Shown here: in pieces, positions 3,107 to 41,449 of the stretch | How positions within the stretch are numbered: the stretch's first letter is position 1 | How the letters are laid out: every line of letters starts with the position of its first letter | Assembly: GCA_017448345.1 (NCBI GenBank) | Contig: JAFSLP010000011.1 | Coordinates: 1 to 41,449 of the forward strand | Direction of reading: 5' to 3' | Length of the DNA stretch: 41,449 bases | Source: Paludibacteraceae bacterium | Lineage (GTDB): Bacteria > Bacteroidota > Bacteroidia > Bacteroidales > Paludibacteraceae | The notes under the pieces: model-generated | What the model was told of the DNA's origin: nothing | Database searches by the model: none | What the model saw: the letters and a program-made list of their open reading frames with translations, nothing else | Program-made: the position numbers and the translations under genes

Positions 3107-3173
3107 CAGTTGATAGTTGATAGTTGATAGTTGATAGTTGAAAGAAGTCGTATAGTTGAAAGTTGAAAGGTTG
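3107..3173 (+). repeat. Heptamer repeat run between recQ and rimO
   Basis: Directly after the recQ stop, AGTTGAT units repeat about four times with period 7, then change to GTTGAAA units at 3154-3170. The last AAAGG of the run (3166-3170) sits just upstream of the rimO ATG at 3174 and may serve as its ribosome binding site. The same heptamers recur inside rimO, after glyA and at the end of mfd. Confidence 0.9.
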
Positions 3174-4595
3174 ATGCATAAAGGAGAGATAGATTTTATA
3201 ACGCTGGGGTGCTCGAAGAACCTTGTGGATGCAGAGCGTGTGATGCGGCAGCTGGAAGCAGCAGGCTGGCATTGCGTACATGACGCAGAAGAGCCCAAAG
3301 GCGAGATATGCGTCATCAACACCTGCGGATTCATCGGGGACGCCAAAGAAGAGAGTATCAATATGATACTCCGCATGGCAGAACGGAAGAAACAAGGGAA
3401 ACTGCGGAAACTGATTGTGATGGGCTGCCTGAGCGAGCGTTACCGGGCAGAGTTAGAAAAAGAGTTGCCGGAAGTGGATGAGATGTACGGCAAATTCGAT
3501 TTCCTCAAATTAGCCGATGAGTTGAAAGTTGAAAGTTTAACGTTGAAAGAAGCCGGAAAGTCAAAAGCAGACAGTTGTTCCAGTTTTGAGCGGAAGCTGA
3601 CGACACCGAGGCATTATGCGTATCTGAAGATAAGCGAGGGATGCGACCGATTCTGCTCGTATTGCGCAATCCCTTTAATAACAGGACGTCATACGAGCCG
3701 CCCCCAAGCGGAGATACTGGACGAGGTACGGTGGCTGGTGAGCCAAGGCGTGAAAGAGCTGAACGTGATAGCGCAAGATTTGAGCAGCTACGGGTTAGAC
3801 CTCTCCCCCACCCTCCCCTCAAGGGAGGGAGAAAAGTCGAAAGTCGAAAGAAAGCATTTGCTGCCGGAGCTGATAGACGAGATAGCACAAGTGCCGGGCG
3901 TGGAATGGATACGGCTGCATTACGCCTACCCGACGGATTTTCCGGAAGAGCTGTTAGACGTAATGGCAAGACACCAAAACGTGTGCAAATACCTTGACAT
4001 AGCCTTGCAACACTGCACGGACCATATGTTAGGACTGATGCGACGGCACATAACACGCGCCGAACAGGATGCCCTGATACAAAAAATCCGCGAGAAAGTG
4101 CCGGGCATATGTATCCGCACAACGCTGTTAGTGGGTCATCCGGGCGAGACAGAAGAGGACTTCGAGGCGTTGAAAGCATGGGTGAAAGAGATGCGTTTCG
4201 AGCGTATGGGCTGTTTCGCCTACTCGGACGAAGAAGGCACCTACGCCCACCGACAGTATACCGACGACATACCGACAGAAGTGAAAGAAGCACGCGCAGC
4301 CGAACTGATGGCAATCCAACAGGATATAAGCCGCGAACTGATGCAAGGTTTTGTCGGGAAGACCGAGAAAGTGATTATCGACCGCGAGGAAGGCGAATAC
4401 TTCATCGGACGGACACAATACGACAGTCCTGAAGTGGATTGCGAAGTGCTGATTGAGAAGCCGAAAGTCGAAAGTCAAAAGTCAAAAGTCGAAAGTCAAA
4501 AGCCGAAAGACAAAAGCCTAAAAGAGGGCGAGTTCTATGACGTGCTGATAACACGTGCGGAGGAGTTCGACCTATACGGAGAGATTGAGAATTAA
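3174..4595 (+). CDS. rimO: Ribosomal protein uS12 methylthiotransferase RimO
   Basis: RimO is a radical-SAM enzyme that adds a methylthio group to an aspartate of ribosomal protein uS12. The N-terminal UPF0004 domain supplies three cysteines (LGCSKNLVDAE, NTCGFIGDAKEES, MGCLSER) for the auxiliary cluster. The radical-SAM cluster is C157, C161 and C164 (EGCDRFCSYC). A TRAM domain ends the protein. I chose the ATG at 3174 (MHKGEIDFITLGC), which fits the family N terminus; an in-frame TTG at 3156 would lie wholly in repeat DNA. Oddity: three stretches absent from typical RimO are encoded by dispersed repeats: about residues 116-136, 210-227 and 428-450 (KVESQKSKVESQKPK), the last inside the TRAM domain. 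The frame stays open throughout, so the enzyme is probably functional. Size 473 residues, against about 430-440 usual. Confidence 0.95.
   Translation: MHKGEIDFITLGCSKNLVDAERVMRQLEAAGWHCVHDAEEPKGEICVINTCGFIGDAKEESINMILRMAERKKQGKLRKLIVMGCLSERYRAELEKELPEVDEMYGKFDFLKLADELKVESLTLKEAGKSKADSCSSFERKLTTPRHYAYLKISEGCDRFCSYCAIPLITGRHTSRPQAEILDEVRWLVSQGVKELNVIAQDLSSYGLDLSPTLPSREGEKSKVERKHLLPELIDEIAQVPGVEWIRLHYAYPTDFPEELLDVMARHQNVCKYLDIALQHCTDHMLGLMRRHITRAEQDALIQKIREKVPGICIRTTLLVGHPGETEEDFEALKAWVKEMRFERMGCFAYSDEEGTYAHRQYTDDIPTEVKEARAAELMAIQQDISRELMQGFVGKTEKVIIDREEGEYFIGRTQYDSPEVDCEVLIEKPKVESQKSKVESQKPKDKSLKEGEFYDVLITRAEEFDLYGEIEN
3521..3575 (+). repeat. Repeat-derived insert 1 inside rimO
   Basis: GTTGAAAGTTGAAAGTTTAA followed by CGTTGAAAGAAG and GGAAAGTCAAAAG encodes LKVESLTLKEAGKSKADS between the UPF0004 domain and the radical-SAM core. 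It is the same heptamer as in the recQ-rimO gap and lies in a linker where length variation is tolerable. Confidence 0.8.
3801..3854 (+). repeat. Repeat-derived insert 2 inside rimO, with hairpin
   Basis: A C-rich stretch with a perfect stem CCCTCCC (3811-3817) and GGGAGGG (3823-3829) is followed by GTCGAAA heptamers (3835-3849). It encodes SPTLPSREGEKSKVERK in a loop of the radical-SAM barrel after AQDLSSYGLD. The bases at 476-500 left of recQ resemble the C-rich part (CCCCCTC...GGGG). Confidence 0.8.
4457..4521 (+). repeat. Repeat-derived insert 3 inside rimO TRAM domain
   Basis: About eight degenerate 7-base units (GTCGAAA, GTCAAAA, GCCGAAA, GACAAAA) encode PKVESQKSKVESQKPKDKS between the conserved EVDCEVLIEK and EGEFYDVLITRA strands of the TRAM domain. 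Confidence 0.85.
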
Positions 4596-17231: not shown

Positions 17232-17250
17232 GTAGAAAGACAATGGACAA

Positions 17251-17290
17251 AAGTCGAAAGTCGAAAGTTGAAGGCTGAAGGCTAAGGCTA
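17251..17290 (+). repeat. Heptamer repeat tract after glyA
   Basis: GTCGAAA twice, then GTTGAAG and GCTGAAG, GCTAAGG: degenerating 7-base units between the glyA stop and the terminator. It belongs to the same family as the copies in and around rimO. Confidence 0.85.
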
Positions 17291-18190: not shown

Positions 18191-18273
18191 AAGAGTAAGA
18201 ATTTAATATGTGAATATAGAGGTTTTTTGTTACGAAAAAATGTTTATATTGTCATTTTGTCTCATTTTCGGCA

Positions 18274-18305
18274 CAAAAGTACGATTTTTTTTCCGAATAT
18301 GCAAA
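18274..18305 (-). promoter_or_regulatory. Promoter of the araC-like gene
   Basis: Read on the minus strand: TTTG at 18305-18302, a 20-base spacer and TACTTTTG at 18281-18274. It matches the Bacteroides consensus and lies about 84 bases before the start codon, back to back with the promoter at 18322-18352. Confidence 0.8.
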
Positions 18306-18321
18306 TTTTTGAGCCAAAATT

Positions 18322-18352
18322 TTTGTTTTTTCATTATTTTTTTGTAATTTTG
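18322..18352 (+). promoter_or_regulatory. Promoter of the DUF4837 lipoprotein gene
   Basis: TTTG at 18322-18325, 19 bases, TAATTTTG at 18345-18352. The start codon at 18374 leaves a leader of only about 15 bases, so translation would begin almost at the 5' end. Confidence 0.8.
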
Positions 18353-18373
18353 CATCCTCAAACCGAAATATGT

Positions 18374-19402
18374 ATGAAAAAACATCTTATTTTTACACTC
18401 TTTGCCCTTGCACTGATGAGTTGCAATAATCCGAACGAACGGCTGCTGACATCCGCGACCGGCAGTATCTATGAATGTCTGGCAGTAACACCCAATCTGC
18501 CGTCCGTGGAGCACGCCGTACGCGAGACCATGGGGGCAGACATGTACGGTCTTCCGCAGATGGAACCCTATTTCACCCTGACACAAATCACGACGGGGCA
18601 GTTTGATGACATGTTCAAATCGACACGTAATATCCTCATCGTGGATATCAACGCTCAAAAATACACCCAGCTGAAGGTGCTCAAGTCACGTGACGTATGG
18701 GCAAAGCCACAAGCCATGATCCGAATCCAAGCGCCGGGCGAAGAGGCATTTCTCAGCTATTGGCAGCAGAACGGCGGGAACATACGGGAGTGGTTTGTGC
18801 GCGAGGAACTGGCACGGCAGATACGTTTCTATCGCGCGAATACCAATAAGAACGTGCGCGCGAAGCTAAACAAGCAGGGATATGACCTGCTTATTCCCGA
18901 GGATTACATTATGATTAAAAATGAAAAATTAAAAATTGAAAATGTCGAAGACTCGGTAGAGGTACTGTGGTGCTGCAACAACATAGGTCCGATGCGCAAA
19001 GATGTGGTGGTCTATAGTTATCCCTATACTTCGCAGGAGCAGTTTGGCATCGAGTCCCTCATCCTGATGCGTGACACAGTGTTAGGACGTATTGTGTCCG
19101 CACAGGTGGAAGGCAGCCATATGGGCACCGAGTTCAAGCATTTCCCTCCCGTGACACGCTCCGTGGCAGCGCTGCGTGACAGCACAGGCGGTTTCTATGG
19201 TATGGAGACACGCGGACTATGGAAGATCCTTGACGGAGAAGCGATGGGCGGACCGTTTGTGAGCCTGACAAGGCTGGACCAAGTGAACGGGCGCGTAGTG
19301 ACAGCAGAAGCGTTCCTCTTTGCAGCCGGACAGAAGAAACGCAATGCCATGCGTCAGCAGGAGGCTATTCTCTACACGCTGCAAATGCCGCAGGACAAAT
19401 AA
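18374..19402 (+). CDS. DUF4837 family lipoprotein
   Basis: The ATG at 18374 gives 342 residues starting with a lipoprotein signal (MKKHLIFTLFALALMSCNN, lipobox LMSC), so the mature protein is anchored in the envelope. The body fits the DUF4837 family of Bacteroidota as I recall it: SATGSIYECLAV at the mature start, RNILIVDI, KYTQLKVLKSRDVWAKPQAMI, YSYPYTSQEQF and ETRGLWKILDGEAMGGPFVS. The function of this family is not known. Oddity: residues about 180-191 (MIKNEKLKIENV) are encoded by an A-rich repeat tract (18911-18946) of the kind found between genes. The promoter lies directly upstream, and the gene converges with pnuC with only 7 bases between the stops. Confidence 0.88.
   Translation: MKKHLIFTLFALALMSCNNPNERLLTSATGSIYECLAVTPNLPSVEHAVRETMGADMYGLPQMEPYFTLTQITTGQFDDMFKSTRNILIVDINAQKYTQLKVLKSRDVWAKPQAMIRIQAPGEEAFLSYWQQNGGNIREWFVREELARQIRFYRANTNKNVRAKLNKQGYDLLIPEDYIMIKNEKLKIENVEDSVEVLWCCNNIGPMRKDVVVYSYPYTSQEQFGIESLILMRDTVLGRIVSAQVEGSHMGTEFKHFPPVTRSVAALRDSTGGFYGMETRGLWKILDGEAMGGPFVSLTRLDQVNGRVVTAEAFLFAAGQKKRNAMRQQEAILYTLQMPQDK
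18911..18946 (+). repeat. AT-rich repeat tract inside the DUF4837 gene
   Basis: ATGATTAAAAATGAAAAATT continues as AAAAATTGAAAATG. It is a run of AAAATT/AAAATG-like units in an otherwise balanced coding sequence and encodes MIKNEKLKIENV. It resembles the ATTACGAATTAAAA tract upstream of menG. Confidence 0.6.
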
Positions 19403-26465: not shown

Positions 26466-27509
26466 TTAACAGCTCACGAACTGGCGGAGGAAACGGACAT
26501 CGTTCTCGGAGAAGAGACGGAGGTCCTTGACGCGGTATTTGAGATTGGTGATACGCTCGACTCCCATGCCAAAAGCATAACCGGAATAGACCTTGCTGTC
26601 AATGCCGCACGCCTCCAGCACGTTCGGGTCCACCATTCCGCATCCGAGAATCTCCACCCATCCGGTGCCTTTGCAGAACGAACAGCCTTTTCCGCCGCAG
26701 ATATTGCAACTGATATCCATCTCGGCACTCGGCTCCGTGAAGGGGAAATAGGAGGGGCGGAGACGTATCTTGGTGTCAGCGCCGAACATCTCCTTGGAGA
26801 AATACAGGAGCGCTTCGCGGAGGTCCGCATAGCTGACATTCTTGTCGATATAGAGTCCCTCCACCTGATGGAAGAAACAGTGTGCCCGCGCAGAGACGGC
26901 TTCGTTACGATAGACACGTCCGGGACAGAGGACGCGGATAGGCGGTTTCTGGGTGGTCATGACGCGCGTCTGTACGGATGAGGTATGCGAACGAAGCAGC
27001 ACATCGGTAGGCTTCTGCACGCCTATCTCTTTCTCCACGAAGAACGTATCCTGCATGTCGCGTGCCGGGTGTTCGGGAGGAAAATTGAGCATGCCATAGA
27101 CATGTCTGTCATCCTCCACCTCCGGTCCTTCAGCCACAGTGAACCCGATGCGCGAGAAGATATCCACTATCTCTTCACGCACGAGGGAGAGCGGATGTCG
27201 CGTCCCCAGAGCAATAGGATCGGGCGTACGCGTGAGGTCATTTACCATTTGGTCATTTACCATTTGGTCATTTATTTTCTCACGCATGCTGTTGATGCGG
27301 TTCTCCGTCTCCTGACGAAGCTGGTTGAGCATCTGCCCCAGTTCGCGTTTCTGGTCGGAAGGAACGGTGCGGAACTCATTGAAAAGCGAAGTAATCTCGC
27401 CTTTCTTACTGAGATATTTGATACGCAACGCTTCCAGCTCCTCCATATTGGAAGCCGACATCTTGTCCACCTGATCCAGCAAGGATTGTATAGTTTCTTT
27501 CAATGCCAT
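26466..27509 (-). CDS. pheS: Phenylalanyl-tRNA synthetase alpha subunit PheS
   Basis: PheS carries the catalytic class II core that charges tRNA-Phe. The 347-residue protein has the N-terminal coiled coil (LRIKYLSKKGEITSLFNEF), the TPDPIALGTRHPLSLVREEI boundary, motif 2 (RVLCPGRVYRNEAVSARAH) and the GYAFGMGVERI motif 3. A zinc-knuckle-like insert CNICGGKGCSFC lies near residue 267, as in other Bacteroidota PheS. Oddity: residues about 80-90 (INDQMVNDQMVND) come from two perfect copies of a 15-bp repeat at the junction of coiled coil and core. pheT is not adjacent, which is usual in this phylum. The leader of about 70 bases contains a TACGATTTA-type repeat. Promoter at 27583-27614. Confidence 0.97.
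   Translation of the reverse strand: MALKETIQSLLDQVDKMSASNMEELEALRIKYLSKKGEITSLFNEFRTVPSDQKRELGQMLNQLRQETENRINSMREKINDQMVNDQMVNDLTRTPDPIALGTRHPLSLVREEIVDIFSRIGFTVAEGPEVEDDRHVYGMLNFPPEHPARDMQDTFFVEKEIGVQKPTDVLLRSHTSSVQTRVMTTQKPPIRVLCPGRVYRNEAVSARAHCFFHQVEGLYIDKNVSYADLREALLYFSKEMFGADTKIRLRPSYFPFTEPSAEMDISCNICGGKGCSFCKGTGWVEILGCGMVDPNVLEACGIDSKVYSGYAFGMGVERITNLKYRVKDLRLFSENDVRFLRQFVSC
27239..27268 (-). repeat. 15-bp tandem repeat inside pheS
   Basis: CATTTACCATTTGGT occurs at 27239-27253 and 27254-27268, and a third partial copy (CATTTA) follows. On the coding strand it reads ACCAAATGGTAAATG, giving NDQMV twice. The same vocabulary (ATGGTAAATGGTACATGGACC) appears inside mfd. Confidence 0.93.
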
Positions 27510-27511
27510 AA

Positions 27512-27570
27512 TATGATGTACGATTTACGGATTTACGATGTACGATTTATTTATTCGATATACGATTCTT
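27512..27570. repeat. TACGATTTA-type repeats in the pheS leader
   Basis: ATGTACGATTTACGGATTTA is followed by CGATGTACGATTTATTTATTC and GATATACGATTC: at least four degenerate copies of an 8-9 base unit in the untranslated leader of pheS. It belongs to the group of short dispersed repeats seen across the window. Confidence 0.75.
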
Positions 27571-27656: not shown

Positions 27657-28418
27657 ATGGTCAGTATCATTATCCCGATATACAACGCCTCGTTTTATCT
27701 GCCGGCGTGTCTCCTCTCGCTGCAGAGCCAGCGTAGTCCGGAGCCGCTGGAGTTCATCCTTGTGGATGACGGTTCGACGGACGGGAGTCTCTCCATCGCC
27801 CGTTCGGCAGCGGCATCCGACCCGCGCATCACAGTGATAGCACAGCCTCACGCAGGGCAGTCGGCAGCACGGAACAGAGGAATGGAGGCGGCGAAAGGCG
27901 GATATATCGCTTTTGTCGATGCCGACGACCGTCTGGAGCCGGAATGGACAGCCCGGCATCTGTCCGCCATCGAAGGAGCGGACTATGTGCAGAGCGGATA
28001 CAAGAGAATTGACAGTCAAAAGTCGAAAGACCGCTGCGCTCAAAGTAGCAAGACCGCTGCGTTCAAAGCAGAAATACCTGCAAAACGTCCCAAGAACCGG
28101 TACCAGTTCACCTCGCCGTGCATGCGGCTGTACCGGCGGGAAGCGATAGAAGGGATGCGGTTTGAGGAAGGGATGATTTATGAGGATGTCATCTGGTCAG
28201 TGGACCTGTGGCTGCGGAAGCTGCGGTGCCGCCTGACAGACAACACCGGCTATCTATACACCTTCAACCCCACAAGCACGACCTCCCGCCCCCACCCTGA
28301 CGCACGACGGGTGGTGTTTCAGAAACTGCGGGAGAGAGCCGCCCACGCGTCCCTGCGGGGAAGATGCATCATCTTATACACCATACTCCGTTTGAAAATC
28401 CATTTTTTGAGACAATGA
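27657..28418 (+). CDS. Glycosyltransferase family 2
   Basis: The 253-residue protein opens with MVSIIIPIYNASFYLPACLL, the standard start of the GT-A fold family 2, followed by ILVDDGSTDGS (nucleotide binding) and the metal-binding AFVDADDRLEPEW; IYEDVIWSVDLW supplies the ED acceptor motif. An ATG three codons upstream (27648) is an alternative start. It transfers a sugar from a nucleotide donor in the cytoplasm; substrate unknown. Oddity: residues about 118-140 are encoded by GTCAAAAGTCGAAAG followed by a 23-bp imperfect tandem duplication (28027-28071). Its stop overlaps the start of the pectate lyase gene (ATGA), an unusual pairing with a secreted enzyme. Confidence 0.9.
   Translation: MVSIIIPIYNASFYLPACLLSLQSQRSPEPLEFILVDDGSTDGSLSIARSAAASDPRITVIAQPHAGQSAARNRGMEAAKGGYIAFVDADDRLEPEWTARHLSAIEGADYVQSGYKRIDSQKSKDRCAQSSKTAAFKAEIPAKRPKNRYQFTSPCMRLYRREAIEGMRFEEGMIYEDVIWSVDLWLRKLRCRLTDNTGYLYTFNPTSTTSRPHPDARRVVFQKLRERAAHASLRGRCIILYTILRLKIHFLRQ
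28027..28071 (+). repeat. Imperfect 23-bp tandem duplication in the GT2 gene
   Basis: AAGACCGCTGCGCTCAAAG with TAGC (28027-28049) is followed by AAGACCGCTGCGTTCAAAG with CAG (28050-28071). It directly follows a GTCAAAAGTCGAAAG heptamer stretch. As 23 is not a multiple of three, the copies are read in different frames. Confidence 0.8.
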
Positions 28419-34245: not shown

Positions 34246-34248
34246 AGA

Positions 34249-34287
34249 ATTACGAATTAAAAATTACGAATTAAAAATTACGAATTA
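34249..34287. repeat. 14-bp tandem repeat between menG and the Dabb gene
   Basis: ATTACGAATTAAAA starts at 34249, 34263 and 34277 (third copy partial). The related phrases CACGAATTAAGATTACGG (35517-35534) lie between nrdD and nrdG. The repeat sits just upstream of the Dabb start codon. Confidence 0.93.
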
Positions 34288-34988: not shown

Positions 34989-35513
34989 TCAGTTTTTCTC
35001 AAAAGCCGAGCGCCGGAAAACAGCCGTCATGTCCTGCCACTCGTCCCCTGACCGTTTATAAAAACGCTGGTTGGTCGTCGGTGATTTCAGTCCGCCGAGA
35101 GCCTCCACATACGGCCCGAACTTGACGTAGTCGAACGTCGAGAGTGGAAAGTCAAAAGAAGTTTGGGTGTTGAACGTCTCCGGTGTCAAAGGTCTTCCTG
35201 AGTACCAAGCCACCTTCAGGGACGATGGACGATGGCCAATGGACGATGGACAGTTCTTGACATACTCCGCCCAATGCGCCACTTCTCCGGGTGCTTGGTC
35301 GCCGCCCATGAACGCCACGCAGGTAATCATAGTGCCGTACCGCTCGACCAGTCCGTCCAGCAGCGCCTCGTCCAGCTCCTCGCCGGTGTCTTCCCACAGA
35401 TGCGGACTGTGACACCCCTTGCAATGACAAGGACACCCGGAGAGGTTGAGCGCAAGTGTCACCTCCCCGGGAATCTCTTGGAATACGATGTCAAACGATG
35501 CTACACGCATCAT
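34989..35513 (-). CDS. nrdG: Anaerobic ribonucleotide reductase activating protein NrdG
   Basis: NrdG is the radical-SAM enzyme that creates the glycyl radical on NrdD. In this 174-residue protein the CxxxCxxC cluster is LSGCPCHCKGCHSP, preceded by FQEIPGEVTLALNLSGC; FMGGDQAP and the KVAWYSGR strand also fit. The start could be ATG at 35513 or 35510, or a GTG at 35519. Oddity: two stretches not expected in the family are encoded by repeat-like DNA: residues about 86-97 (PSSIGHRPSSL, from ATGGACGATGG units at 35217-35255) and about 116-126 (SFDFPLSTF, from GTCGAGAGTGGAAAGTC at 35137-35160). Both flank core strands. It follows nrdD by 22 bases. Confidence 0.93.
   Translation of the reverse strand: MMRVASFDIVFQEIPGEVTLALNLSGCPCHCKGCHSPHLWEDTGEELDEALLDGLVERYGTMITCVAFMGGDQAPGEVAHWAEYVKNCPSSIGHRPSSLKVAWYSGRPLTPETFNTQTSFDFPLSTFDYVKFGPYVEALGGLKSPTTNQRFYKRSGDEWQDMTAVFRRSAFEKN
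35217..35255 (-). repeat. ATGGACGATGG repeats inside nrdG
   Basis: GGGACGATGGACGATGG, CCAATGGACGATGGACAG: four copies of a GATGGAC/AATGGAC unit in about 38 bases. They encode NCPSSIGHRPSSL in NrdG, between two helices where other members are shorter. Confidence 0.75.
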
Positions 35514-38052: not shown

Positions 38053-38083
38053 TTGCATATGTCAGTTTTTTTTCGTACCTTTG
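38053..38083 (+). promoter_or_regulatory. Promoter of mfd
   Basis: TTG at 38053-38055, 20 bases, TACCTTTG at 38076-38083. The in-frame TTG at 38081 is part of the -7 box and so cannot be the start codon; GTG at 38114 is. Confidence 0.85.
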
Positions 38084-38113
38084 CGCCCGATTTTAATATG
38101 GCATAGTGCGCAC

Positions 38114-41100
38114 GTGTATATAAACGACCTGCAAATACTCTTTGCCCGACACCCTGAAAACGGTTTGATACAACGGGAGTTGGAGAAACGGAAGGAGAAC
38201 CATCTCCTTTTGTCAGGCTTGCGCGCGTCCGCACGTGCCTTCGCGCTGAGCACGCTTGACAAGTTCCCGCTCTTCGTCATCATGGACAATCCGGAGGCGG
38301 CGCAGTATCTCTTCGGCGACCTGAAGACGCTCGGTTCCAACGTGCTGTTCTTCCCCTCCGCGCAGAAGAGGCGCACCACGGACGAGGCGATGATGATTCA
38401 GCGCACAGAGACACTGATGGCTATCAGCCAACAGCAGGAGACATCAGGCAGGTGCCCTGTGATTGTCACCTACCCGGAAGCCATCGCTGAACCGGTGATG
38501 CAGAAAGAGGACCTCACCTCCGTCAGTTTCCGCCTCAAACAGGGCGAAGAGATACAGCAATCCGCCCTCAGCCGTCAGTTATCGGAATTAGGCTTCGAGC
38601 ATGTGGATTTCGTCTTCCAGCCCGGGCAATATGCCATCCGTGGAAGCATCGTGGACATTTACAGTTACAGCCACGACAACCCCTTCCGTATCGATTTCTT
38701 CGGCGACGAGATAGACAGTATCCGCGAGTTCGACATAGAGGACCAGCTGAGCAAGAACCGCATCGAGGAAGCGACTATCACCTGCACGAAAGGACAGGAC
38801 ACCGGCTCCGAAGGAAATATCGTCGATTATCTGGGCGATGATGTCGTCTGGGTGAGCAACGACTGGACCGTTGTCCGCTTCCGGCTGGAGGGTTTGGGAG
38901 CCGAGGGCGCCCTGACGCCGATTGAACACCGGCGCACCATAGAGATCGCGGACAAGAGCACCTTCCCCGCGCACGGCAGGATATGCTTCGACACGATGCC
39001 GCAACCCCTCTTCCACAAGCAGTTCGACCTGCTGGCGGAAGACCTGCGCAGGCATGCCGAAGAGGGATATAAGATATACATCCTCGCCGAGCAGCAGAAA
39101 CAGCTCGACCGCCTGCAGGCGATTATGGAAAACCTCTCCCCGAGCGAGGCGGAAGGGGAAACAAGGGCGGCTTTCATCCCCGTCAACGCCACCATCCACG
39201 AGGGTTTCGAGGACCGCGAACTGAAGATTTGCTGTTACACCGACCATCAGATTTTCGAGCGTTACCACCGTGTGACCTTCTCCAGCGAGAATGCGCGGAG
39301 AGGCAAGGCAATCATCACCCTTCGCGAGATAAACCAGTTGCAGATAGGCGATTATGTCGTACACTCCGACCACGGAATAGCCAAGTTCGGCGGACTCGTC
39401 ACCACCCCTGTCAACGGACGTCCTCAGGAGATGATCAAACTCAACTACCGCGACGGCGCCAACGTCTTTGTCAGCATCCATAACCTCCACCGCATCAGCA
39501 AATACAAAGGCAGAGAGGGCAGCGAACCCACGATAGCACGTCTCGGCAGCGGCGCATGGGAGCGCCTCAAAGAACGGACCAAGGACAAGGTCAAGGAGAT
39601 AGCCCGCGACCTCATCCGTCTCTACGCCACACGCAAACAACAGAAAGGCTTCGCTTTCTCTCCTGACGGATACATGCAGCATGAGCTGGAGGCGTCCTTC
39701 TTCTACGAGGACACGCCCGACCAAGCCAAAGCCACGGCGGATGTCAAACGCGATATGGAGAGCCCGATGCCGATGGACAGGCTCGTCTGCGGCGATGTGG
39801 GCTTCGGCAAGACGGAAGTAGCCATGCGCGCTGCCTTCAAAGCCGCCACGGACGGCAAACAGGTAGCGGTCTTGGTGCCGACAACGGTACTCGCACTCCA
39901 GCATTACAACACCTTCCGCGAGCGCATGAAAGAGCTGCCCGTGCGTATCGAATACCTCAGCCGGCTCAAGACAGCCAAAGAGACCAAGGAACTGCTTGCG
40001 GACTTGGAGACGGGCAAGATAGACATTCTCATCGGCACGCACAAACTCATCGGCAAGACGGTCAAATGGCACGACCTTGGTCTGCTCATCATTGACGAGG
40101 AACAGAAATTCGGCGTGGTGGCAAAAGAGAAACTCAAGAGCCTGCGCACGAATATCGACGTGCTGACCCTGACCGCCACACCTATCCCGCGAACACTGCA
40201 GTTCTCGCTGCTCGGAGCACGCGACCTGAGCGTCATGACGACACCGCCACCGAACCGTTATCCCGTGCAGACGGAACTGATAACCATTGACGACGAGGAC
40301 CTGATAAAAGAGGCGATAGACCTTGAGATGGAGCGCAACGGACAAGTCTTCATCGTCAACAACCGCATAGAGATGCTGCCTCGTATCGAACGGCGCATCC
40401 ACAAGCTGTGCCCCGAAGCGCGTATCGTCACAGCACACGGGCAACTGCCCGCCAACGAGATGGAGGAGAGGCTGGAAGCTTTCATCAACTATGATTACGA
40501 CATCCTTCTCTCCACCACCATCATCGAGTCCGGCGTGGATATACCGAACGTCAACACCATCCTCATCTTCTCCGCCCACCAGTACGGTCTGGCGGACCTG
40601 CACCAGTTGCGCGGACGCGTGGGCAGAAGCAACAGGAAAGCCTATTGTTACCTCATCGCGCCGGACCGCGAGCTGCTGACAGAGGATGCACGCAGGCGCT
40701 TGGAAGCCCTGAGCACCTTTGCCGAATTAGGAGCCGGTTTCAACCTCGCCATGCAGGATCTTGACATACGCGGAGCGGGTAACATGCTCGGCTCCGAGCA
40801 GTCCGGCTTCATCGCCGACTTGGGCTACGAGACCTACCAGCGCATCCTCGCCGAAGCCATGGAGGAGTTGAAAGACGAGATGGGTCTGGACGCCGGCACT
40901 GCCTCCGATATGGTAAATGGTACATGGACCAATGAGAAAATGAACTGGTGTTCCGACAGCCAGCTGGAGACGGACCTGCCGGCTTGTTTCCCGACCGACT
41001 ATATCGAGAATATCAGCGAGCGTATCACCCTCTACCGCGAACTGGACAGCCTGCACAGCGAACAACAGATGACCGATTTCAAGAAACGGCTCATCGACCG

Positions 41101-41440
41101 TTTCGGAGCACTGCCCGAACCGGCAGAAGAACTGCTCTCTGTGGTCAGACTAAGATGGATATGCTGCCGCTTGGGCGTTGAGAAGATTCTGCTCAAAGGC
41201 GAACATATGACGATGTTCCTTGTCCAGAACAGAGACGCATACTGGCAGTCCGAAGCGTTCGGGAATATCATCCAATACGCCGTCACTCGTCCGGAGCGAT
41301 GCTCCCTGCATGAGGAGACCGACAAGAAGGGAATCAAAACCGGCAGACGTTATGTGACTATCACGAATGTCAAAACCATTGCCGGTGCCATCAACCTGCT
41401 GTCGAAGATAGACAGAGGGGAATTGAAAGTTGAAAGTTGA
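38114..41440 (+). CDS. mfd: Transcription-repair coupling factor Mfd
   Basis: Mfd removes stalled RNA polymerase from damaged DNA and recruits UvrA. The 1108-residue protein has an N-terminal UvrB-like region (GSIVDIYSYSHDNPFRIDFFGD), the CarD-like polymerase-binding domain (GDYVVHSDHGIAKFGG), the RecG-like translocase (Walker A GDVGFGKTEVA near residue 561, IIDEEQKFGV, TLTATPIPRTLQFS, QLRGRVGRSNRKAYCYL) and the C-terminal TRCF domain. The start is the GTG at 38114, about 24 bases after the expected transcription start. Oddities: residues about 933-944 (MVNGTWTNEKMN) are encoded by ATGGTAAATGG-type repeat DNA, and the last residues ELKVES plus the TGA stop are made of GTTGAAA heptamers that run on past the gene. 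Confidence 0.96.
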   Translation: MYINDLQILFARHPENGLIQRELEKRKENHLLLSGLRASARAFALSTLDKFPLFVIMDNPEAAQYLFGDLKTLGSNVLFFPSAQKRRTTDEAMMIQRTETLMAISQQQETSGRCPVIVTYPEAIAEPVMQKEDLTSVSFRLKQGEEIQQSALSRQLSELGFEHVDFVFQPGQYAIRGSIVDIYSYSHDNPFRIDFFGDEIDSIREFDIEDQLSKNRIEEATITCTKGQDTGSEGNIVDYLGDDVVWVSNDWTVVRFRLEGLGAEGALTPIEHRRTIEIADKSTFPAHGRICFDTMPQPLFHKQFDLLAEDLRRHAEEGYKIYILAEQQKQLDRLQAIMENLSPSEAEGETRAAFIPVNATIHEGFEDRELKICCYTDHQIFERYHRVTFSSENARRGKAIITLREINQLQIGDYVVHSDHGIAKFGGLVTTPVNGRPQEMIKLNYRDGANVFVSIHNLHRISKYKGREGSEPTIARLGSGAWERLKERTKDKVKEIARDLIRLYATRKQQKGFAFSPDGYMQHELEASFFYEDTPDQAKATADVKRDMESPMPMDRLVCGDVGFGKTEVAMRAAFKAATDGKQVAVLVPTTVLALQHYNTFRERMKELPVRIEYLSRLKTAKETKELLADLETGKIDILIGTHKLIGKTVKWHDLGLLIIDEEQKFGVVAKEKLKSLRTNIDVLTLTATPIPRTLQFSLLGARDLSVMTTPPPNRYPVQTELITIDDEDLIKEAIDLEMERNGQVFIVNNRIEMLPRIERRIHKLCPEARIVTAHGQLPANEMEERLEAFINYDYDILLSTTIIESGVDIPNVNTILIFSAHQYGLADLHQLRGRVGRSNRKAYCYLIAPDRELLTEDARRRLEALSTFAELGAGFNLAMQDLDIRGAGNMLGSEQSGFIADLGYETYQRILAEAMEELKDEMGLDAGTASDMVNGTWTNEKMNWCSDSQLETDLPACFPTDYIENISERITLYRELDSLHSEQQMTDFKKRLIDRFGALPEPAEELLSVVRLRWICCRLGVEKILLKGEHMTMFLVQNRDAYWQSEAFGNIIQYAVTRPERCSLHEETDKKGIKTGRRYVTITNVKTIAGAINLLSKIDRGELKVES
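40913..40945 (+). repeat. ATGGTAAATGG-type repeat inside mfd
   Basis: ATGGTAAATGGTACATGGACC is followed by AATGAGAAAATGAAC, with ATGG recurring. It encodes MVNGTWTNEKMN in the link between the translocase and TRCF domain, and shares words with the pheS 15-mer on the opposite strand (ACCAAATGGTAAATG). Confidence 0.75.
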
Positions 41441-41449
41441 AAGTTGAAA
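41424..41449 (+). repeat. GTTGAAA heptamer run at the end of mfd
   Basis: TTGAAAGTTGAAAGTTGAAA continues to the window edge. It supplies the final mfd codons (AAA GTT GAA AGT) and the TGA stop at 41438-41440. Its full length is not visible. Confidence 0.9.

Follow-up and report, generated by a model that had tools for sequence, protein, structure and literature searches.

Heptanucleotide repeats, probably swapped as cassettes, in loops of RimO and other enzymes across a genus of Bacteroidales

How can a seven-base repeat, whose period runs against the triplet code, come to lie several times inside a conserved enzyme that remains intact? The question is raised by the rimO gene of a Paludibacteraceae bacterium (GCA_017448345.1) on contig JAFSLP010000011.1, whose 41,449 nucleotides were analysed at full length and are called the window below. 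This contig (C119) is one of 120 in a 2.5 Mb genome that is 80.6% complete, and the nearest RimO relatives in named genomes are metagenome-assembled genomes (MAGs) of Paludibacteraceae, Bacteroidales and Bacteroidia, mostly ruminant where a source is stated. The earlier note, made from the letters alone, had described heptamers that fill the recQ-rimO gap and then recur in three tracts within rimO. The features concerned are the following.

3107..3170, plus strand: recQ-rimO intergenic heptamer array, GTTGATA x4, then GTTGAAA units around AAGTCGTATA (TRF 3108-3141)
3174..4595, plus strand: rimO, 473 amino acids, with UPF0004, Radical_SAM and TRAM_2 matches (ATG 3174, stop 4593-4595; TIGR01125, 437.9 bits, above cut-off)
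3510..3593, plus strand: rimO site 1, variable stretch with a heptamer tract from 3520 (TRF, lag-7 identity, RimO alignment)
3801..3854, plus strand: rimO site 2, 54-nt stretch in the Radical_SAM match, an inverted repeat (3811-3829) followed by GTCGAAA units
4455..4526, plus strand: rimO site 3, 72-nt tract of GTCGAAA/GTCAAAA units in the TRAM_2 match (TRF, lag-7 identity, alignment)

TRF confirmed the heptamers in the gap and in the three tracts, as did lag-7 identity for the gap and tracts 1 and 3, with tract starts within 2 bases of those first noted. The TRF period-7 arrays in rimO cover 3520-3549, 3833-3850 and 4458-4509, the third reaching 4522 and 4524 at periods 14 and 21, and the tract peptides read LKVESLTLKEAGKSK, EKSKVERK and EKPKVESQKSKVESQKPKDKSLKEG. 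For tract 1, originally placed at 3521-3575, the start held and the end did not, as TRF stops at 3549 and the lag-7 signal, spanning 3510-3561, at 3561. Within rimO, lag-7 identity over 28 nt peaks at 0.93, compared with a maximum of 0.68 over 2000 codon-order shuffles, and the two disjoint stretches with an identity of at least 0.6 (tracts 1 and 3) were equalled by 1 of 2000 shuffles. By itself, tract 2 is not long enough for the 0.6 threshold; it forms the end of the 54-nt insert at 3801-3854, whose inverted repeat CCCTCCC-CTCAA-GGGAGGG is unrelated to the heptamers.

Each site is placed either between domain matches or at a stretch that measures 4-9 residues in the outgroups. Site 1 is located between the UPF0004 match, ending at residue 106, and the Radical_SAM match, starting at residue 152; site 2 comprises 18 residues in the window RimO and 4 in all nine aligned outgroup sequences, and site 3 comprises 24 residues compared with 7-9 in the outgroups. 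As had been proposed, the third tract lies inside the TRAM domain, enclosed by the Pfam TRAM_2 match at residues 394-471. The frame is indeed kept open, but not, as the earlier note supposed, by tract length and phase. A pure GTTGAAA tract of at least three units always contains an in-frame TGA, because a period of 7 hits all three phases in every 21 nt; the tract at site 1 reads GTTTAAC at the unit where TGA would fall in frame, so that a single-base change avoids the stop. The units GTCGAAA and GTCAAAA, read from the sequence, are stop-free in every sense frame.

RimO loci were gathered from the window, its genus, named kin and 13 other families of the order (129 in total), with one genome per species as in all our comparisons. 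A RimO frame was present in 125 of the 129 loci, and collapsing identical proteins gave 109 distinct sequences, 100 from the ingroup and 9 from the outgroup; four of the 13 outgroup loci (L011, L013, L014, L021) failed a motif filter and are excluded from the nine, genome G032 has no RimO above cut-off, and a first alignment took 38 of 49 loci. Counted as runs of at least two gap-rich columns, internal length among the 100 ingroup sequences varies only at the three tract sites, barring the ends and two small indels found in 3 and 1 sequences. Sites 1, 2 and 3 measure 15-71, 0-41 and 6-32 residues in the ingroup and 17, 4 and 7-9 residues in the nine outgroup proteins, none of which carries such inserts at these positions. 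Lag-7 identity of the DNA amounts to 0.33, 0.46 and 0.55 at sites 1, 2 and 3 compared with 0.23 in the rest of rimO, and sites 2 and 3 peak again at lag 14.

The units vary by species (GTCGAAA, GTACAAA, AAAGGTG, GGTTACG, CAGCCGT, AATTAAA, ATTGGAA, AATGCAC and more), and some filled sites are non-heptameric and hold other modules. Among these modules, GACCGCT[N]CGCT[CG] has 5 matches in our sample of the source genome, the GGGAGGG hairpin 1, and the GATCGAGCA[AG]AGCTCTTC and GAGGACACGCGC pieces 0 each, so the latter three are not claimed as dispersed there. Site 2 is filled in 35 of the 100 ingroup proteins, and on a RimO tree made without the sites its occupancy requires at least 13 state changes, 7 of them forced by starred branches.

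Heptamers are not confined to rimO. Our sample of the source genome comprised 320,222 bases, namely the 41-kb window and 20 stretches picked without regard to arrays, and includes two all-N contigs (5,580 N), so its array densities are slightly underestimated; the genus and outgroup comparisons each consist of ten 20-kb stretches, all surrounding rimO. Period-7 arrays make up 60 of 185 tandem arrays in the source genome (18.7 per 100 kb), 13 of 64 in the genus stretches (6.5 per 100 kb) and 1 of 33 in the 200 kb of outgroup stretches (0.5 per 100 kb). Other periods are raised as well, with 32 period-11 and 17 period-15 arrays in the 320 kb compared with 3 and 4 in the outgroups. The pattern GTYRAAA x3 has 138 overlapping matches in the source genome compared with 10 for the reversed pattern, and was matched in 129 of 178 genus genomes, ranging from none to 207 matches. 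The window itself holds the following further arrays.

17250..17272, no strand assigned: AAAGTCG heptamer array between called genes (TRF)
18914..18943, plus strand: in-frame heptamer array (IKNEKLKIENV) in the DUF4837 match of ORF 18227-19402 (TRF, Pfam)
27515..27549, no strand assigned: GATTTAC-type heptamer array between called genes (TRF)
34247..34287, no strand assigned: GAATTAC/GAATTAA heptamer array between called genes (TRF)
35220..35251, no strand assigned: GGACGAT heptamer array between called genes (TRF)
41423..41449, plus strand: GTTGAAA array over the 3' end of ORF 38081-41440, to the contig end

The stop codon of ORF 38081-41440 is the TGA of a heptamer. In the unbiased sample 41 of 57 heptamer clusters are intergenic and 16 coding, while genes called with a simple custom caller cover 76% of the sequence. 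A second batch from the same genome, partly chosen for arrays and kept separate for coding share and orientation, has 29 of 65 clusters between genes; unit counts and family tables pool both batches. The genome scan thus returned dispersed arrays throughout, intergenic and coding, in line with the earlier note's picture of a spreading repeat.

Several other enzymes, named here from their Pfam domains, carry arrays too. In the source genome, arrays lie within a Pfam match in SecA and GltX, both from the partly chosen batch, in an MFS protein and, for one of two arrays, in PheT; in genomes G029 and G072 the same holds for YegS, a DegT aminotransferase, a DHH phosphoesterase and a MurF-like Mur ligase with a fused alanine racemase. 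Arrays outside or between matches were seen in a PFK-family protein, in the PheT of G029 and in PheT of the source genome, whose second array occupies the position at which the G029 protein has a different heptamer. Orthologue alignments such as that of YegS took 30 loci out of 37 matching genomes each. The YegS loop is filled in 12 of the 30 genomes, always from the same codon and with differing, mostly heptameric contents (those of G022 and G031 are not clearly heptameric), and two loops of the DHH enzyme behave likewise.

Coding copies bear probable marks of selection. In RimO, sense GTTxA units carry a base other than G in all 15 cases in which the TGA would be read in frame and keep the G in 49 of 53 cases elsewhere; intergenic units keep it in 167 of 268. 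Absence of stops is necessary in an open frame, and the informative part is that mostly only this one base changed. In the unbiased sample, 14 of 16 coding clusters have the purine strand as sense, the two antisense exceptions encoding N termini that are hydrophobic and resemble signal peptides; in the chosen batch 27 of 36 clusters do, leaving 11 of 52 antisense over both. Since the purine-rich strand is mostly sense, coding copies give hydrophilic peptides of the KVESQKSK type. For intergenic arrays, 17 had the same and 5 the opposite orientation to the genes in the first sample, and a link to transcription was considered; it was dropped after the second sample gave 10 and 12 and the split by family proved weak, with GTTGANN arrays at 9 to 1 (p=0.02, uncorrected for the several families).

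Comparison of close species shows turnover at the sites. Loci L020 and L140 are 96.4% identical outside the sites, yet all three sites differ, by a block swap at site 1, an empty site compared with 84 additional nt at site 2, and 63 additional nt (9 heptamers) of the same heptamers at site 3, where the flanks show 0 mismatches in 60 positions. One heptamer family has been replaced by another at a single site in L125/L137 and L097/L131 (92-93% identical), and tracts have been replaced by other modules in L105/L124 and L020/L140 (95-96% identical). Over 14 non-overlapping close pairs, 10-codon flanks beside differing sites contain 260 mismatches, many synonymous, compared with 114.5 expected (2.27x; 27 site-pairs), and those beside unchanged sites 50 compared with 54.4 expected (0.92x; 15 site-pairs). 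The excess at differing sites suggests short patches of recombination. A clean step from an empty site to a heptamer insertion was not encountered between very close species, and the site-2 pairs of empty and filled loci examined (L020/L140, L035/L126, L097/L131) all have extra flank mismatches.

Less close species, in turn, share content. In 31 site-pairs the contents are at least 88% alike between species that are 72-86% identical over the rest of rimO, and the identity ends within 3 nt of the tract on at least one side in 23 of them and on both sides in 10. One 33-nt site-3 tract is identical in L032, L126, L147 and L156, with the rest of rimO at 77-86%, which may partly reflect plain descent, as L126, L147 and L156 form one supported clade with L032 outside. 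The species nearest by content is also nearest by gene in 19 of 94, 5 of 35 and 10 of 75 rows. In species that share content in conflict with the gene tree, the pooled flanks stand at 0.79-0.81, compared with a gene average of 0.78-0.80; the pair L135/L035 at site 3 has closer flanks (0.93 compared with 0.81). Such near-average flanks do not favour simple homologous exchange, whereas the mismatch excess beside differing sites speaks for exchange, and the two flank results cannot be reduced to one mechanism.

The internal order of the units carries information as well. Among 47 GTC[GA]AAA arrays of at least two units in the pooled, partly chosen material of the source genome (G000), 17, 5, 21 and 4 have two, three, four and five units, respectively. 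In four-unit arrays the order ABAA, expected at about 0.08-0.10 per array under random order, occurs in 6 of 9 cases in G029 (p=4.5e-5), 2 of 4 in G072 (p=0.032) and 6 of 21 in G000 (p=0.013), the loci of G029 and G072 having been picked by pattern. After merging same-order copies with similar flanks, the counts are 5 of 8 (p=2.9e-4), 2 of 4 (0.032) and 5 of 19 (0.03). Of the array pairs, 64 of 66 in G029, all 28 in G072 and 417 of 435 in G000 have unlike flanks; the remaining 18 of the 435 share flanks, so some copies in G000 probably spread together with neighbouring sequence. In stop-prone families the frame may dictate the B units; GTCGAAA is a stop-free family, and its ABAA excess in G000 is modest. 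We take the recurrence of ABAA as a likely trace of cassette copying. Of the "repeat-spreading or template-independent process" suggested earlier, the spreading is supported by genome-wide dispersal and by a unit order that recurs above random; template independence is unsupported, because shared unit order and near-identical tracts across species point to copying from a template.

Two kinds of candidate machinery were considered. Y1 transposase (PF01797) matches occur in 68 of 178 genus genomes, 48 of them above cut-off, and include the array-bearing G072, G112 and G166; none was found in G000 or in the array-bearing G029, G071 and G076, all of them incomplete genomes. As the matches do not follow array content, we rejected this transposase as required copying machinery. 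A reverse transcriptase (retron, DGR or group II intron) was rejected as a requirement for a like reason, since RVT_1 does not track arrays: among 40 genomes, 7 have matches, with 2 in G000 and 3 in G081, which has no GTYRAAA match, and none in G029, G071, G072, G075, G076, G112 or G166.

Short DNA elements that resemble these tracts in one respect or another have been described in other bacteria. Rickettsia palindromic elements (RPEs) are short dispersed repeats located in frame inside protein-coding genes; they are palindromes and longer than the ~30 bp heptamer tracts. The in-frame presence in conserved protein genes is found here too, but GTCGAAA-type tracts are non-palindromic, consist of ~30 bp of tandem units, belong to several unrelated families and are swapped at fixed sites. 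REP/BIME elements, which are associated with RAYT transposases, are likewise short dispersed DNA, and the site-2 insert has an inverted repeat; the heptamer units, however, are non-palindromic, and the source genome yielded no Y1 transposase match. Phase-variable simple sequence repeats are tandem repeats in coding DNA, whereas a 7-nt step would frameshift an essential enzyme here and the tracts are kept open.

The closest likeness is to bacterial heptanucleotide repeats. TAACTGA repeats are reported from Beggiatoaceae, from some Cyanobacteria and from five Bacteroidetes, among them Paludibacter propionicigenes (PMC4679880), GGGAATC and GGGGA(C/T)T heptamers from Xanthomonas and Nostoc (PMC4692102), and further such repeats from Calothrix (PMC4679880; PMC4692102); they are largely intergenic, and heptamers are reported as over-represented in many bacteria (PMC4692102). 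For TAACTGA no transfer mechanism was evident, intragenic copies were mostly peripheral, and the forward unit has stops in all frames (PMC4679880). With these repeats ours share the 7-base unit, a dispersed and mostly intergenic placement, several types per genome, occasional copies in ORFs and, with those of Xanthomonas and Nostoc, a preference for four units (counted here for the GTC[GA]AAA family in a partly chosen sample); a strong excess of period 7 over other periods and dispersed, mainly non-coding placement were both found. Ours differ by their in-frame position in the core domains of essential enzymes and by loops that are refilled with other families from species to species; in addition, GTTGAAA, GTCGAAA and GTCAAAA have no G-run of the G-quadruplex type known from Xanthomonas and Nostoc. 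By the features compared, the case belongs with the bacterial heptamer repeats and lacks the palindrome of RPEs; by analogy, it would work like an RPE with the material of heptamer repeats. Searches of the open-licence PMC literature, mostly made without the family name, yielded no description of heptamer tracts inside enzymes of this group.

The feature is real, unusual and genus-wide, with cassettes of heptamers that probably enter the loops of enzymes and are exchanged there. The account towards which we lean is that of dispersed heptamer cassettes of ~30 bp combined with an exchange of loop alleles between species, filtered by selection. A clade of gut Bacteroidales holds several heptanucleotide repeat families as short dispersed cassettes, often of four units or ~30 bp, which would be copied to new places and exchanged between the alleles of species, sometimes with short flanks by recombination and sometimes with nearly none. 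Tracts would also grow in place by frame-keeping steps, as in the one case of 9 heptamers (63 nt). Purifying selection would clear copies that bring stops, break the frame or disturb the fold, so the surviving copies would sit at permissive loops; RimO would be one recipient among many, its activity not being the target. A bolder version, which we regard as tentative and not the probable one, holds that a dedicated activity pastes four-unit cassettes of ~30 bp, almost free of flanks, into new loci and replaces cassettes at fixed loops, creating hypervariable silent sites in essential enzymes throughout the genus. The fixed insertion boundaries could reflect structure alone.

Could the tracts simply be old parts of the protein? 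That RimO ancestrally had loops with KVES-type peptides might be read from outgroup sites 1 and 3, which are short stretches of 17 and 7-9 residues too, but peptides and lengths differ between ingroup species, outgroup lengths are constant or nearly so, and the periodicity is in the DNA at lag 7, not in codons. A search within the order for the same peptides on unrelated codons failed to refute insertion, the DNA itself being heptameric and lineage-specific; the tracts are therefore repeat insertions, as the earlier note held, and ancestral loops, to which we give practically no credence, were rejected. An artefact of metagenome assembly or alignment is very improbable: the titled relatives are nearly all MAGs or uncultured bacteria and many assemblies are fragmented, yet the tracts stay in frame and lack only the stop-making base, many separate assemblies agree, outgroups handled identically give 1 period-7 array in 200 kb, and the RimO scores lie above the family cut-off.

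Ordinary microsatellite birth is a more serious competitor, in which heptamers arise and grow separately in each loop by replication slippage and selection keeps the tolerant loops, with no copying between loci. The in-place growth by 63 nt with unchanged flanks fits it, as do the raised periods 11 and 15, the natural permissiveness of loops and the heptamer over-representation reported for many bacteria (PMC4692102). We nevertheless consider slippage unlikely as the main process, as loci with unlike flanks have the ABAA order in common, species that are 72-86% identical in rimO carry near-identical tracts, families are swapped at 92-93% identity and tracts replaced by other modules at 95-96%, and coding tracts can step only by 21 nt, because slippage of a single 7-nt unit breaks the frame. 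Distinctly doubtful in our view is an old diversity that is only shuffled, with homologous recombination carrying loops from species to species as allelic rimO patches. The mismatches that rise beside differing sites (260 compared with 114.5) and not beside unchanged ones (50 compared with 54.4), the low agreement of content and gene trees (19/94, 5/35, 10/75 rows) and content-sharing pairs with closer flanks such as L135/L035 at site 3 all suit such patches; they do not explain why the same heptamer families occupy many unlinked loci of one genome, in 10 of the 31 content-sharing site-pairs the identity breaks off within 3 nt of the tract at both ends, and the pooled 10-codon flanks are no closer than average.

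Bacterial heptamer repeats have been described, but there is hardly any explanation for them. Their density here, their presence in many species of a single genus and their in-frame entry into essential enzymes make the spread of a seven-base repeat testable by comparing orthologous loops. A dedicated copying activity, if true, would be an unknown way to move ~30 bp of DNA. For the organisms, the tracts represent a fast route by which essential proteins gain new loops, and they show, as a natural map, where RimO, PheT, SecA, GltX and MurF tolerate insertions.

Tandem arrays with periods other than seven were also abundant in this genome: those of period 11 numbered 32 in the 320 kb own-genome sample, whose stretches were not picked for arrays, against 3 in 200 kb of other Bacteroidales families (outgroups), and those of period 15 numbered 17 against 4. 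L058 and L065, two short own-genome contigs, consist of N over their whole length. Arrays in the window whose period is not seven include:
27236-27274, period 15, unit GGTCATTTACCATTT, readable as 7+8 bases
28019-28078, period 23, AAAGTAGAAAGACCGCTGCGCTC, heptamer-like units mixed with a GACCGCTGCGCTC module that is also found in RimO site 3 of genome G004

Non-heptamer modules are likewise housed in the RimO site 2 loops (window 3801-3832; site 2 of loci L042, L109, L120 and L140). One is a CCCTCCC...GGGAGGG inverted repeat, another a piece of about 50 nt with GATCGAGCA[AG]AGCTCTTCACCC, which is present in L120 and absent from its near twin L109. At RimO site 1, L044 and L047, from two related species, have the same arrangement in common: a core that resembles a palindrome, CCCCACGACACAAGTGTCGTCGGGG, with heptamer-like GTTAAAGGC pieces on its flanks.

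In several proteins, a heptamer array directly precedes a C-terminal segment like KILRDGVLYIMYNGTMYNVQGQRVK, which looks like a type IX secretion sorting tail:
L064, 17941-19752, ORF
L067, 12845-17752, ORF
L271, 10524-11552, ORF
L274, 2-2893, ORF
L274, 3135-6851, ORF

Both coding arrays of the unbiased sample whose purine-rich strand is not sense (n=2) encode hydrophobic N-terminal stretches, which look like signal peptides:
L062, 4903-5616, holds a reverse-orientation coding array
L073, 14824-16446, holds a reverse-orientation coding array

Flank comparison showed that the array copies of the two L274 ORFs have both flanks in common. Three GTCGAAA arrays of genome G029 (L178, L181, L182) share an upstream piece near GGCTGTGCA, whereby some cassettes may travel together with adjacent repeats.
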